DNA from: a virus
Strand: one strand, 5' to 3'
IMG/VR virus record: IMGVR_UViG_3300031951_000637
Coordinates: 1-34,927 of that record
DNA: 34,927 nt
Shown here: piece after piece, positions 28,406-33,220 of the stretch
Position numbering within the stretch: the first letter of the stretch is position 1
Layout: every line of letters begins with the position of its first letter
Notes under the pieces: generated by a model
Seen by the model: only the letters and a program-made list of their open reading frames with translations
Database searches by the model: none
What the model was told of the DNA's origin: nothing
Translations under genes and position numbers: made by a program

Positions 28406-29049
28406 TAGAACTTGCCGCCTGCGCCAAGGAACGTGCCAAGCAGATTGGCCGGCATGTTGAACATATTCGCCTGCGCACGACCGACGCCCAGCGCCGTGCC
28501 TGCTTGCGCTGCGCCGATATTGCCAAATTGCTGACTGATTTGATTGGCCGTGTTAATGCCCGCGTTTCCGACGCCTGCCGCAGCGTTCTGCCCAACGCTG
28601 GCAATCCCACCAAGCCGGCCATACTGCTGCTCAATGAATTGGTTGAGCAAAGCTGGTCGAAACTGGCCAAGCGCACCTTGCACGTTGCCGCCACGAAGGC
28701 CGCCTGTCGCGCTGGCATTCTGCAAAATGGCGTTTTCGCCTTGCTGCAACAGCCCTTGGAATAGCGGGCTTTGCTCTTGCTGCTGGAACGCCTGCATCTG
28801 GTTCTGTTCTGTGCCAAGCCCGGCCAAGTCCATAAGCCCCTGCAATGCAGGAATGCCAGCCTCAGAATACGGCGCAAGCAACTGGCGCATCTGTTCACGC
28901 GCGGCGCGCTGTTCTTCAATGGCCATGCCGGCGGCGTTTTCTTGCGCCTGCCCCGCCTGCCGTGCAGCGCGTGACTGCGCACCGCTTGAAAGCGCGCTGC
29001 CGCCGATAACAAGCCCAGCCGTCAAAAGGCCGCCAGTAGGATCAGGCAT
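28405..29049 (-). CDS. DNA transfer (ejection) protein, gp7/gp20 class
   Basis: This 214-residue protein has a hydrophobic Gly/Ser start (TAGLVIGGSALSSGAQSRAA), then AIEEQRAAREQMRQLLAPYS. It then has the strongly conserved QQGENAILQNASATGGLRGG, followed by RPALLNQFIEQQYGRLGGIA. This GENAILQNASATGGLRGGN motif is a hallmark of phage DNA-transfer proteins of the P22-like ejection complex. It overlaps the upstream gene by 8 bases. Confidence 0.85.
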   Translation of the reverse strand: MPDPTGGLLTAGLVIGGSALSSGAQSRAARQAGQAQENAAGMAIEEQRAAREQMRQLLAPYSEAGIPALQGLMDLAGLGTEQNQMQAFQQQEQSPLFQGLLQQGENAILQNASATGGLRGGNVQGALGQFRPALLNQFIEQQYGRLGGIASVGQNAAAGVGNAGINTANQISQQFGNIGAAQAGTALGVGRAQANMFNMPANLLGTFLGAGGKF

Positions 29050-29500
29050 TGTTCATTTCCAGCATGTAGTTTTCATATGTTTCGCCGTAGAGCGCCATGA
29101 CAGACTGCCCAATCTCCAGCGCCGTCTGCGTGCCGTGTTCAATCTGCACACACAACATCACCATGTCGTAATAGCCAGCGCGCCAGACAAACGCGACGGG
29201 GCCATGCTCCTTTGCCCGCTCGGCATCGTCGCTGGCTTTCCACTTGGCATATTGCAGCGCCATAACCGGCAAAAGCGTCATGCTGTTGCGCTGAAAGAAC
29301 GGATGGCCAGGCATAGCGCAAAGCAGGTTCCAGCCGGCCTCAATCGCCGTTTCGCGCGGCACGTGGTCATCATCAACCACGTCATCAATGAACTGCATGG
29401 ACTGCCAAAGCAGCATCAGCCATTCAACGCAATCTGCCGACAATCCCAGCTTATCGGTGAGGTTGCGGCGAAGCCAAAATTCAGGGGGAGCGTCGTTCAT
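29042..29500 (-). CDS. Conserved phage protein before ejection genes
   Basis: This 152-residue protein is rich in Trp/Met and acidic residues: MNDAPPEFWLRRNLTDKLGL, then CVEWLMLLWQSMQFIDDVVD, FVWRAGYYDMVMLCVQIEHG and LYGETYENYMLEM. I recognise this as a recurrent phage gene in ejection or head modules, but no function is assigned. It may be a chaperone or internal component. Its 5' region forms the tRNA-like fold at 29488-29542; the ribosome site AGGA lies in a loop and the ATG in a paired stem. Confidence 0.65.
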   Translation of the reverse strand: MNDAPPEFWLRRNLTDKLGLSADCVEWLMLLWQSMQFIDDVVDDDHVPRETAIEAGWNLLCAMPGHPFFQRNSMTLLPVMALQYAKWKASDDAERAKEHGPVAFVWRAGYYDMVMLCVQIEHGTQTALEIGQSVMALYGETYENYMLEMNNA

Positions 29501-29542
29501 GGTGTCCTGCCATGGGCGGTCTACCGGCTGACCTAGACGCTC
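29488..29542 (-). other. Cloverleaf-like RNA fold over the start codon
   Basis: The minus strand reads GAGCGTC (29542-29536), TA, then GGTC-AGCCGGTA-GACC, then GCC, CATGG-CAGGACA-CCATG, AAC, GACGCTC (29494-29488). This gives a perfect 7-bp closing stem, a D-arm with the tRNA consensus loop AGCCGGTA preceded by TA, and a 5-bp stem with a 7-base loop in place of an anticodon arm. There is no T-arm. The loop contains the Shine-Dalgarno AGGA and the start ATG is in the 3' stem strand. It may be a translational control element or a tRNA relic. T33 is A, so it is not a functional tRNA. Confidence 0.55.
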
Positions 29543-29572
29543 GGTGCAGCAACTATACGCGAGACGGAAAGA

Positions 29573-29905
29573 CTATGCAATAACCCGTCCGCTGGCGTAA
29601 AGCACAAGCGAACTGCCAGCCGCAGCCTGCGCCCAAATGCTTGCGCTTGTTTCCAGCACATGCCCGTTCATCTCTGCCACGATGAATGTTTCGTTCGGCG
29701 CAATCAGGCGCTGCGATACAATCCGATTGTCATTGCCCGCTGTGCCAGCAACGGGAACCACCCACAGCGTTAGCGCAACCGCGCCGCTGCCAACGTTCGT
29801 TGCGGTGAACTTGTCCACGATCACGCGCGATTGTGCGGCGTATTCGTTCGTTGCCGTGGTGCTGGCAAACTTGGGCTGAATTAGTGCGGCGGGGGTGACG
29901 GCCAT
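29573..29905 (-). CDS. Small beta-rich virion protein
   Basis: This 110-residue protein has no Cys: MAVTPAALIQPKFASTTATN, then VIVDKFTATNVGSGAVALTL, and NETFIVAEMNGHVLETSASI. The IVDKFTATN-G motif with a beta-sandwich-like ending (SLVLYASGRVIA) matches many small phage proteins near tail genes. It is probably a structural or adaptor protein. AGGA precedes the ATG. The following 72-base gap holds the cloverleaf-like element. Confidence 0.65.
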   Translation of the reverse strand: MAVTPAALIQPKFASTTATNEYAAQSRVIVDKFTATNVGSGAVALTLWVVPVAGTAGNDNRIVSQRLIAPNETFIVAEMNGHVLETSASIWAQAAAGSSLVLYASGRVIA

Positions 29906-30806: not shown

Positions 30807-31802
30807 TCAAACCGCCCATGAAATTGCTTCGGAGCCGGCGCTACCCGTTGCCCATGCAACATCATAATCTGTATTGCTGGATTTTACCAATGCTTGGCCG
30901 GTCGTGCCGCCCGTAGGAACGCCCCCGCGCGATGCGGCAAGGTTGCCGCTGGTTTGCGTCGCAAGGTCAACGCCTGACAGCGTGCCGCCCAGCGTAACGG
31001 TGCCAGTTGTCGTGATCGGGCCGCCCGTAAGCGTAATGCCGTTGACCGTGCCTGCCGTGGCAACGCTCGTGACGCCGCCACCCCCACCGCCCCCACCGCT
31101 ACCGCAGCAGGGGTTAACCCAGATTGCGCCGTCCGTTGTTCCTACGGCCACCACAACGCCAATCGGAACAACCTCAGTCGGCGCAGTCGTCGTCAATGCG
31201 CCAGGCGTCACGCCGTCTGCAAAGAGAATATCCCCCAGCGCAAAAGCAGACGTGTCCACCCGCTGCACCGTGCCAAACGCCGTTGCGTAGCCTTGCTGTC
31301 CGTTGGCCAAGTCCTGAGACAACAGCCCAACAACCGTGTAAGGCTCTTGCACGCCGTCTGCCGTGAACAATTCCACATCAAGCGCGTTGGTGATGGCTCC
31401 CACCACCCGCACCACCTGTCCCCGCGTCATGGCCGCGCCGCTTGTGTTGACAACGCACGCCAGCTTGTCAAAGCCGATACGCAGCAAAACCCCACTATCG
31501 CCAACGCCAAGCCCTAGCGTGTCGGCGATAGGCTCCCAGCCCATGCGGCCACGGATCGGCACGTAGGGCGCAAAGCGTGACCAATCTATGGTGGAAAGCG
31601 CCGGCCCGTCCGTATCAGGCGCACCCAACGGCGCATAGGCCGCAAGCTCGGCAAGCTGGGCAATGACCGTGTTCGTCGTTTCGCTGACTTCGCCAACCGT
31701 AAACAGCCGTTCAAACGCGCGGATTGCCTCAAAGTCGTTGTCAACAATCTTTGCGATTTGCTGCCGTGTCAGGCCAAGTTTGCGTGGCGGGTTGCTGGCC
31801 AT
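30807..31802 (-). CDS. Tail fibre-like protein, 331 aa
   Basis: The helical start MASNPPRKLGLTRQQIAKIV and a globular central part are followed by a run of glycines (about 235-242). A fibre strand block (TSVATAGTVNGITLTGGPIT, TTGTVTLGGTLSG) and the common fibre end GGTTGQALVKSSNTDYDVAW come next. A similar TSVA...GGPIT block occurs in the 22754-23575 fibre gene. It occupies the position of P22 gene 26 (needle) after gp10, but the sequence is not needle-like. It is coupled by a TGATG overlap. Confidence 0.75.
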   Translation of the reverse strand: MASNPPRKLGLTRQQIAKIVDNDFEAIRAFERLFTVGEVSETTNTVIAQLAELAAYAPLGAPDTDGPALSTIDWSRFAPYVPIRGRMGWEPIADTLGLGVGDSGVLLRIGFDKLACVVNTSGAAMTRGQVVRVVGAITNALDVELFTADGVQEPYTVVGLLSQDLANGQQGYATAFGTVQRVDTSAFALGDILFADGVTPGALTTTAPTEVVPIGVVVAVGTTDGAIWVNPCCGSGGGGGGGGVTSVATAGTVNGITLTGGPITTTGTVTLGGTLSGVDLATQTSGNLAASRGGVPTGGTTGQALVKSSNTDYDVAWATGSAGSEAISWAV

Positions 31803-33220
31803 CAGTAAGCCAACGGCTCTAGCGCCGCCTCCAATCGGGCAATGACGATATGAGCATCGGACGTGCCTTGGAAGCGTTGGATGCGCCAGTTACGCATGGT
31901 TCCCTGCCGCCACCAGCACAGACGCTTCACGCGCTGCCCAAAGCCGCCCACGCCAAGATAACGCGGCTGTGACCACGTAACGCCGTCAATCGTGTAGCTG
32001 GTGCTGATGGTGGGCGACAAGCCAAAGGCAACGCTGCCGGTCAACGGCACAAGTTCCAGCGCCGACACGATTGCGCCTTTGCCTTCGTTGTAGATGATGC
32101 TTGTGCCAAACTCCCAACGCACCTTTTCACCCCAATGCGTGCCAATGTCCCGCACAAGCCGGCCCAGCTTCGTGCTAGTTGGGTCTGCAACGCGCCAGCT
32201 ATCGTAGCACCACAGCATGTCCCGCGCTTTGTATTGCGCAAAGCCGTCAATGGCCGTGGTCAGCACGTGCCAAGCCGGCAGTTGCAGTTCTTTGCTTGCC
32301 GCGCCATCATAGACGAGTGTCCGGTCGGGGAGGTGCACGTAAAGCAACTCATGGCTGCGGTCGTTACGCGCTTCTAGGATGACGGCGGCAAGTTCGGTTT
32401 CGCTGTAGCCCAACAGCAGGTCGTCTATTTCTTGCGTGCTGATTTTAACGTCTTGGCCATTTTCACCCAAGAACACGCCCGGAGGTTGGTTGCGGCCACT
32501 GCCCACAAACGCGACGGTTTCCATGTAAACACAGCACGCATCGCGGCCAACGGTTCCTTTCTGGATTTGAGCGCCTTCATTGCGCTGGAACGGGAACAAA
32601 TCACCGCCTACGTTGTCAAACACTTCAATTGTGAAGCGGTTGAGCGCATAGACTTCGTTGCGCAGTTTCACCAACGCCAGCACAGGGTCAGGGTCAGCTT
32701 CGGCACTGCCATATTTGAGTGGGTTAACCTGCGTCGGGTCGGTCAATTCGGTGACAACCAGAAACTCCCCGTCCGTTGTCATGAAATAGCCGTCAATCCA
32801 GATCACGTCATTGACGTTGAGCAAGTCAGGGTCGGTCACTTGGGTTAGCGCGCCGTTCCAATAATAGAGCCGGTCGCCGCTGTTGATAGCCAGCCGGTCA
32901 AAGCTATAGTCAAACGCACATTGACCGCCCGTGCCAACGTCGCCAAGTTCGGTAACGGTGCCGTCTGCTGCTACGGTGCAAAGCTTTGTTCCCAGCACGC
33001 GATATTCGATGCCGTTCCACACGATGCCGCCACGGGGCAGGCCAAGGCCAACGCTAGGGCCTGTGGGCGTGTCATGCTGCACAATGCCATCACCGGGCCG
33101 CAGATAGCCTTGGTTAATCCCAGTATCGCGCGGCGTTGGCACCCAGTTGACGGGATAGCTAACCCGAAAATCAGGCGAGATTGAAGCAAAGATGCCGCTG
33201 ATGATCGGGATTTGGGCCAT
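31802..33220 (-). CDS. Tail hub / packaged-DNA stabilisation protein, P22 gp10 family
   Basis: It has 472 residues, the same as P22 gp10. The N-terminal MAQIPIISGIFASISPDFRV and SYPVNWVPTPRDTGINQGYL, the middle DGYFMTTDGEFLVVTELTDP, FGTSIIYN and C-terminal RVKRLCWWRQGTMRNWRIQR follow the gp10 layout of a beta-propeller-like body. It closes the tail after gp4 and carries the tailspike and needle. The ATG overlaps the upstream stop (TAATG). Position agrees with P22 order 4-10. Confidence 0.9.
   Translation of the reverse strand: MAQIPIISGIFASISPDFRVSYPVNWVPTPRDTGINQGYLRPGDGIVQHDTPTGPSVGLGLPRGGIVWNGIEYRVLGTKLCTVAADGTVTELGDVGTGGQCAFDYSFDRLAINSGDRLYYWNGALTQVTDPDLLNVNDVIWIDGYFMTTDGEFLVVTELTDPTQVNPLKYGSAEADPDPVLALVKLRNEVYALNRFTIEVFDNVGGDLFPFQRNEGAQIQKGTVGRDACCVYMETVAFVGSGRNQPPGVFLGENGQDVKISTQEIDDLLLGYSETELAAVILEARNDRSHELLYVHLPDRTLVYDGAASKELQLPAWHVLTTAIDGFAQYKARDMLWCYDSWRVADPTSTKLGRLVRDIGTHWGEKVRWEFGTSIIYNEGKGAIVSALELVPLTGSVAFGLSPTISTSYTIDGVTWSQPRYLGVGGFGQRVKRLCWWRQGTMRNWRIQRFQGTSDAHIVIARLEAALEPLAY

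Follow-up and report, generated by a model that had tools for sequence, protein, structure and literature searches.

The closest analogue of the element reported here is the gene 32 operator of T4, T2 and RB69, a pseudoknot bound by gp32 and placed about 67 nt ahead of the start codon, with an unstructured A+U-rich stretch following it (PMC3014915). A 2010 review noted that T4 gene 32 was possibly the sole viral pseudoknot used in translational autoregulation (PMC3014915). Well-characterised phage mRNA pseudoknot operators are few. A small pseudoknot combined with Shine-Dalgarno (SD) pairing also occurs in preQ1 riboswitches (PMC11625349). In the late operon of the P22-like phages ST64T and APSE-2, genes 26, 14 and 7 follow gene 10, and the genes abut or overlap there, leaving no room for a promoter or a leader.

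We analyzed an IMG/VR virus record of 34.9 kb (the whole stretch is called the window), whose minus strand carries a late region like that of P22. The gene order around the site is that of the P22-like late operon, with gp10 upstream and gp7 and other ejection genes downstream. In many relatives the place of gene 14 is taken by a DUF2824/GNAT-type gene, as in that operon. The upstream stop codon (29573) and the ATG (29500-29498) of a 152-aa gene are separated by 72 nt, the gap given in the preliminary description, and a putative promoter overlaps the upstream stop codon. The features are listed in Table 1.

Table 1. Features of the putative leader and its neighbors in the window
Feature	Position	Strand	Evidence or remark
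Head closure Hc3/gp10	31802-33220	-	three more genes between gp10 and the 152-aa gene
Predicted promoter, sigma-70-type: TTGCAT (29580-29575), N17, TATAGT (29557-29552)	29552-29580	-	exact pattern match
Pseudoknot 5' strand ACCG, A29545 = predicted +1	29542-29545	-	pairs with 29526-29523; covaries among relatives
Pseudoknot 3' strand CGGT, within P2 loop	29523-29526	-	covariation
P1 5' strand GAGCGTC (closing stem); first G shared with pseudoknot	29536-29542	-	MFE
P1 3' strand GACGCTC, codons 3-5 of the 152-aa gene	29488-29494	-	MFE and clade comparison
P2 hairpin GGTC-AGCCGGTA-GACC (the earlier 'D-arm')	29518-29533	-	covariation, 27 diverse rows
P3 hairpin CATGG-CAGGACA-CCATG; AGGA in loop, start codon in 3' strand	29498-29514	-	MFE
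Opening gene of the operon (152 aa, phrog_21390), occupying the place of P22 gene 14	29042-29500	-	
gp7-type DNA ejection protein, 214 aa	28405-29049	-	phrog_598, Pfam P22_gp7

Like the gene 32 operator, the element is a pseudoknot in a phage mRNA leader upstream of the ribosome-binding site, and it is lost or absent in some related phages. Unlike the gene 32 operator, it starts at the predicted +1, with about 20-45 nt to the start codon; SD pairing comes after it, and the genes downstream are ejection genes. As in an operator of the gene 32 type, a pseudoknot lies in the leader of a phage mRNA close to the ribosome-binding site; this is a likeness, not a homology as far as tested. Compared with preQ1 riboswitches, the element has another topology and other conserved letters, its genes are not queuosine-related, and it has no Rfam match.

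The minus-strand segment 29542-29488 reads GAGCGTC TA GGTC AGCCGGTA GACC GCC CATGG CAGGACA CCATG AAC GACGCTC. It folds into a 7-bp closing stem, TA, a 4-bp stem with loop AGCCGGTA and a 5-bp stem with a 7-nt loop. This structure, drawn in the preliminary description from the letters, is both the minimum free energy (MFE) and the centroid structure of RNAfold; its sequence and coordinates were correct, and we found AGGA in the 7-nt loop and the ATG in the third stem as it had stated. The shuffling check it had suggested gave an MFE of -20.2 kcal/mol against -14.2 ± 2.6 kcal/mol for shuffles (z -2.34), and 5 of 200 shuffles folded equally well or better. By itself, therefore, the fold in the window is only mildly unusual, modestly better than chance. 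The decisive evidence is comparative: relatives keep the stems with other letters.

The predicted promoter, TTGCAT-N17-TATAGT, lies directly upstream of the fold and ends 6 nt before A29545. The pattern was chosen post hoc; it is matched exactly, and no match is expected by chance in shuffles. As it agrees with the consensus at 8 of 12 positions and a stricter scan did not report it, our confidence in it comes from conservation in the family. There the -10 box usually sits 6 nt before RYYGAG, a constant discriminator, and a -35 box with 5-6 of 6 matches precedes 93 of 182 distinct leaders, compared with about 5 in shuffles. The transcript is accordingly predicted to start at A29545, the R of RYYGAG. 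Neither the promoter (29580-29552) nor the pseudoknot (29545-29542/29526-29523) had been noticed in the preliminary description.

No homologue of the 152-aa protein was confirmed in IMG/VR, so the conserved neighbors were used instead, and relatives were located by a 472-aa gp10 homologue and by gp7. An exact search with the window's own hairpin returned two unrelated matches only (L082, L083), and blastn of the leader against isolate phages gave nothing relevant. A generic descriptor without synteny matched 41 loci, compared with about 42 matches in shuffles; because it was too noisy, the later tests relied on synteny, stricter patterns or a mismatch control. The gp10-anchored loci carry the leader at the same place. 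The two closest (L002, L003) keep GAGCGTC and the loop AGCCGGTR, and they also keep an SD hairpin across the start codon, though its stem letters differ; the next gene of L002 resembles a GNAT acetyltransferase by sequence. In more distant loci a -10 box is followed, usually after 6 nt, by RYYGAG; a hairpin whose stem has mostly 3-5 bp and whose loop reads NNCCRRYR comes mostly 3-8 nt further on, and an SD follows it.

The predicted first four bases of the transcript, ACCG (29545-29542), are complementary to CGGU (29526-29523) in the P2 loop, which makes the supposed D-loop one half of a pseudoknot. In the family this loop has 8 nt, NNCCRRYR, and its CRRY is the pairing partner of the 5' end of the same RNA. 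The strand pairs found in relatives are GCUG/CAGC, ACUG/CAGU, ACCG/CGGU, ACAG/CUGU, GUUG/CAAC and GUCG/CGAC.

Across the IMG/VR collection, we compared structure-only patterns with matched strands against a control with one mismatched pair. The GCTG/CAGC pattern matched at least 120 loci, and 117 of 120 adjoin gp10/gp7 genes among the matches listed. The doubly changed pattern ACTG/CAGT matched 116 loci, 109 of them syntenic. When one pair was broken (ACTG/CAGC), 13 loci were matched and none was syntenic. The window's own pattern, ACCG/CGGT with a looser SD, matched at least 120 loci, with 27 flagged as syntenic among the matches listed; one of these (L439) looks spurious and another (L342) is the same contig as L002.

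A second test was anchored on protein. Eighty loci from a gp7 alignment were scanned for GAG, a hairpin and loop CC, a filter that left the pseudoknot unrequired; it implies the G-C pair and leaves three pairs free. All four positions were paired in 52 of 53 candidates, including ACAG/CTGT and GCCG/CGGC, with three of the 52 being a doubtful GATG/CGTC. Relaxed filters add about nine loci. The GATG/CGTC match (L477, L488, L523) lacks a promoter and was set aside as what looks like one repeated coincidence. In L488 and L523 the true element follows about 90 nt downstream of this match, which is probably a coincidence within related sequence. The pattern and protein-anchored sets share some contigs and many loci are closely related, so that these counts overstate the number of independent events.

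Over 27 diverse rows, the pseudoknot is paired in 100% and P2 in 90%, and in each helix three of the four pairs have changed on both sides. The covariation score was 0.54, compared with 0.19 ± 0.03, and controls with slid partners failed. RNAalifold's own prediction on this alignment is the four pseudoknot pairs. P2 contains G-U pairs in 29 of 182 distinct leaders, which points to pairing at the RNA level. Conserved helices with compensatory changes ahead of a gene, the mark of a structured cis-acting leader RNA, are thus present. Homologues lacking conserved pairing had been named in advance as evidence against the fold; the opposite was found, with pairing conserved and letters changed.

Downstream of this core the SD or the start codon is usually paired, in varying ways. 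In 123 of 165 distinct sequences, the GG of the SD can pair with a CC as part of a helix of at least 3 bp, compared with 54.7 ± 5.3 for shuffled linkers; these helices are short, most of them having 3 bp, and part of the family has none. Close relatives of the window, and some other loci, have in place of this helix P3 over the start codon, which recurs with other letters in L002, L003 and L004.

The 5' strand of P1 comes right after the pseudoknot strand, and its 3' strand lies at or past the start codon. In the ACCG/ACAG clade, to which the window belongs, P1 pairing scored 15.8, compared with 14.2 ± 0.5 for swapped partners (1 of 200 swaps equal), and in the ACTG clade 14.3, compared with 12.0 ± 0.6 (0 of 200). 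In one pair of loci (L474/L535), a synonymous AAC/AAT codon change is matched by G/A in the P1 5' strand. As a family-wide feature P1 was rejected: in the GCTG clade, the largest, which is without P1, 27 of 200 swaps were equally good. Since P1 has support in these two clades only, the closing stem is a clade-level addition, and the core consists of P2 and the pseudoknot. Taken together, the comparisons support the predicted promoter, the pseudoknot, P2, SD or start-codon pairing and, in the window's clade, P1.

Judged by sequence, the element is present in hundreds of environmental contigs of short-tailed, P22-gp10/gp7-type phages, just before the ejection-protein genes. It is present in a complete uncultured genome (MW202867). 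It was not found at this place in PfAn1, VSN-002, AH02 and Vibrio 1.275.O with the descriptor, nor in ST64T and APSE-2 by gene spacing. Two records with the element (L142, IMGVR_UViG_2521172642_000006; L155, 2599185185_000001) seem from their numbers to derive from isolate genomes, which means that there may be prophages or culturable hosts carrying the element. One contig of 60.7 kb (IMGVR_UViG_3300036985_000346) carries two copies about 25 kb apart (L098, 24777-30496; L249, 50265-60673) with different pseudoknot letters, GCTG and ACTG; perhaps two phage genomes have been joined there, or the contig is chimeric.

The constant gene 3' of the element is the gp7-type ejection protein gene. The operon's first gene is swappable: besides phrog_21390 it may be of DUF2824/GNAT type, cupin-like, a 2OG-Fe(II) oxygenase or a related hydroxylase, and in some relatives it is gp7. 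The ejection genes downstream are constant. The exchange site was seen in L014, L096, L142, L365, L479 and L215, with aspartyl/asparaginyl hydroxylase and SET/cupin-like genes among the variants. At four loci upstream of a gp7-type gene (L496, L499, L526, L540), the promoter is kept, with a GACAAT or GAGACAAT box, but the element has been lost, leaving a short leader that has an SD. Three others (L487, L490, L511) appear to be without both promoter and element. These natural losses indicate that the element is modulatory, not essential, and separable from the promoter.

We consider it rather likely that the element acts in cis as a leader RNA, transcribed from an internal promoter, and controls translation of the ejection operon in P22-gp10/gp7-type podoviruses; it probably controls the amount of ejection proteins made. 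Transcription would begin at the internal promoter at the head of the operon, with the RNA starting at RYYGAG. Its first four bases would pair with the P2 loop (NNC-CRRY-R), locking the 5' end in a pseudoknot. Just downstream, the CC anti-SD would pair with the SD, whereas in the window's clade the start codon would instead be paired in P3 and early codons in P1. The leader may then set a low or conditional rate of translation initiation for the operon, could be opened or closed by some protein, metabolite or folding-kinetic step, and would act separately from the long late transcript. Autoregulation by the ejection proteins is possible; the exchange of the first gene among relatives argues against such a role for that gene's protein. 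The preliminary description had suggested an RNA switch controlling a virion-associated gene. A conserved, covarying leader at the ribosome-binding site of the ejection operon bears out one part of this, and switching goes beyond that support.

The main rival is protection of the 5' end, because the pseudoknot begins at the predicted first nucleotide: it would hide the terminus from 5'-end-dependent decay and give a long-lived operon mRNA, with SD pairing incidental. The exact start of the strand at the predicted +1 behind a constant 6-nt discriminator and the lower conservation of P1 and P3 relative to the pseudoknot and P2 agree with this. However, it leaves the excess of anti-SD and start-codon pairing unexplained, and a plain hairpin would do, yet the pairing of loop and 5' end is strictly kept; we regard it as a serious but unlikely explanation. 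Under translational control, a special case would be a ligand-binding riboswitch with the pseudoknot as aptamer. The compact pseudoknot, the unpaired AG behind RYYG and unpaired C of the loop, both strictly kept, and the adjoining paired SD fit such a device, and this arrangement occurs in preQ1 riboswitches (PMC11625349). It is nevertheless doubtful, as the downstream genes are structural and without a metabolic theme, neither the window stretch nor ten relatives match an Rfam riboswitch, and a protein could serve phages equally well as effector.

The location at the promoter's start site would also suit a repressor-bound DNA operator with inverted repeats over +1 to +35. This is very improbable, since the repeats cross as in a pseudoknot, the spacers vary, G-U pairs are kept in P2 and in the pseudoknot of L019/L029, and the element has a single orientation relative to the SD and start codon. 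Hardly any credence is left for the initial proposal that a degenerate tRNA, or a mimic of one, was captured as an operator. In its favor, the loop AGCCGGTA does look like a D-loop, and the fold is closed by a 7-bp stem. However, ARAGORN found no tRNA gene in the window stretch, and Rfam 15 families gave no match to it up to E 10. Ten relatives had no Rfam match at gathering score; two stretches gave chance-level matches only, far under gathering. Relatives with loops TTCCAACA, ATCCTGTG and CGCCGGCA and without P1 are not tRNA-like; they lack an anticodon arm, a T-arm and an acceptor stem in tRNA register. What was called a near-ideal tRNA D-loop is one variant of the NNCCRRYR loop, constrained by pairing to the RNA's 5' end.

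The element represents a new RNA family among the cis-acting leader RNAs, a kind already known; no earlier description was found in the open-licence literature, which leaves most subscription journals outside. A wider reading, for which the case is nearly but not quite balanced, is a new class of phage regulatory RNA, a riboswitch or protein-sensed operator, whose aptamer would be a pseudoknot with the transcript's own first nucleotides and which would control ejection-protein synthesis in a large environmental branch related to P22. Because the element is short, widespread and rich in compensatory changes, it is directly testable, and its consensus can be used for annotating hundreds of viral contigs. 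The P22 virion contains about 12 gp7, 12 gp16 and 30 gp20 (PMC4992974); given such tens of copies, separate dosing of ejection proteins would be plausible. The element suggests that many environmental podoviruses uncouple their ejection proteins from the long late transcript by means of a dedicated promoter and a folded leader.
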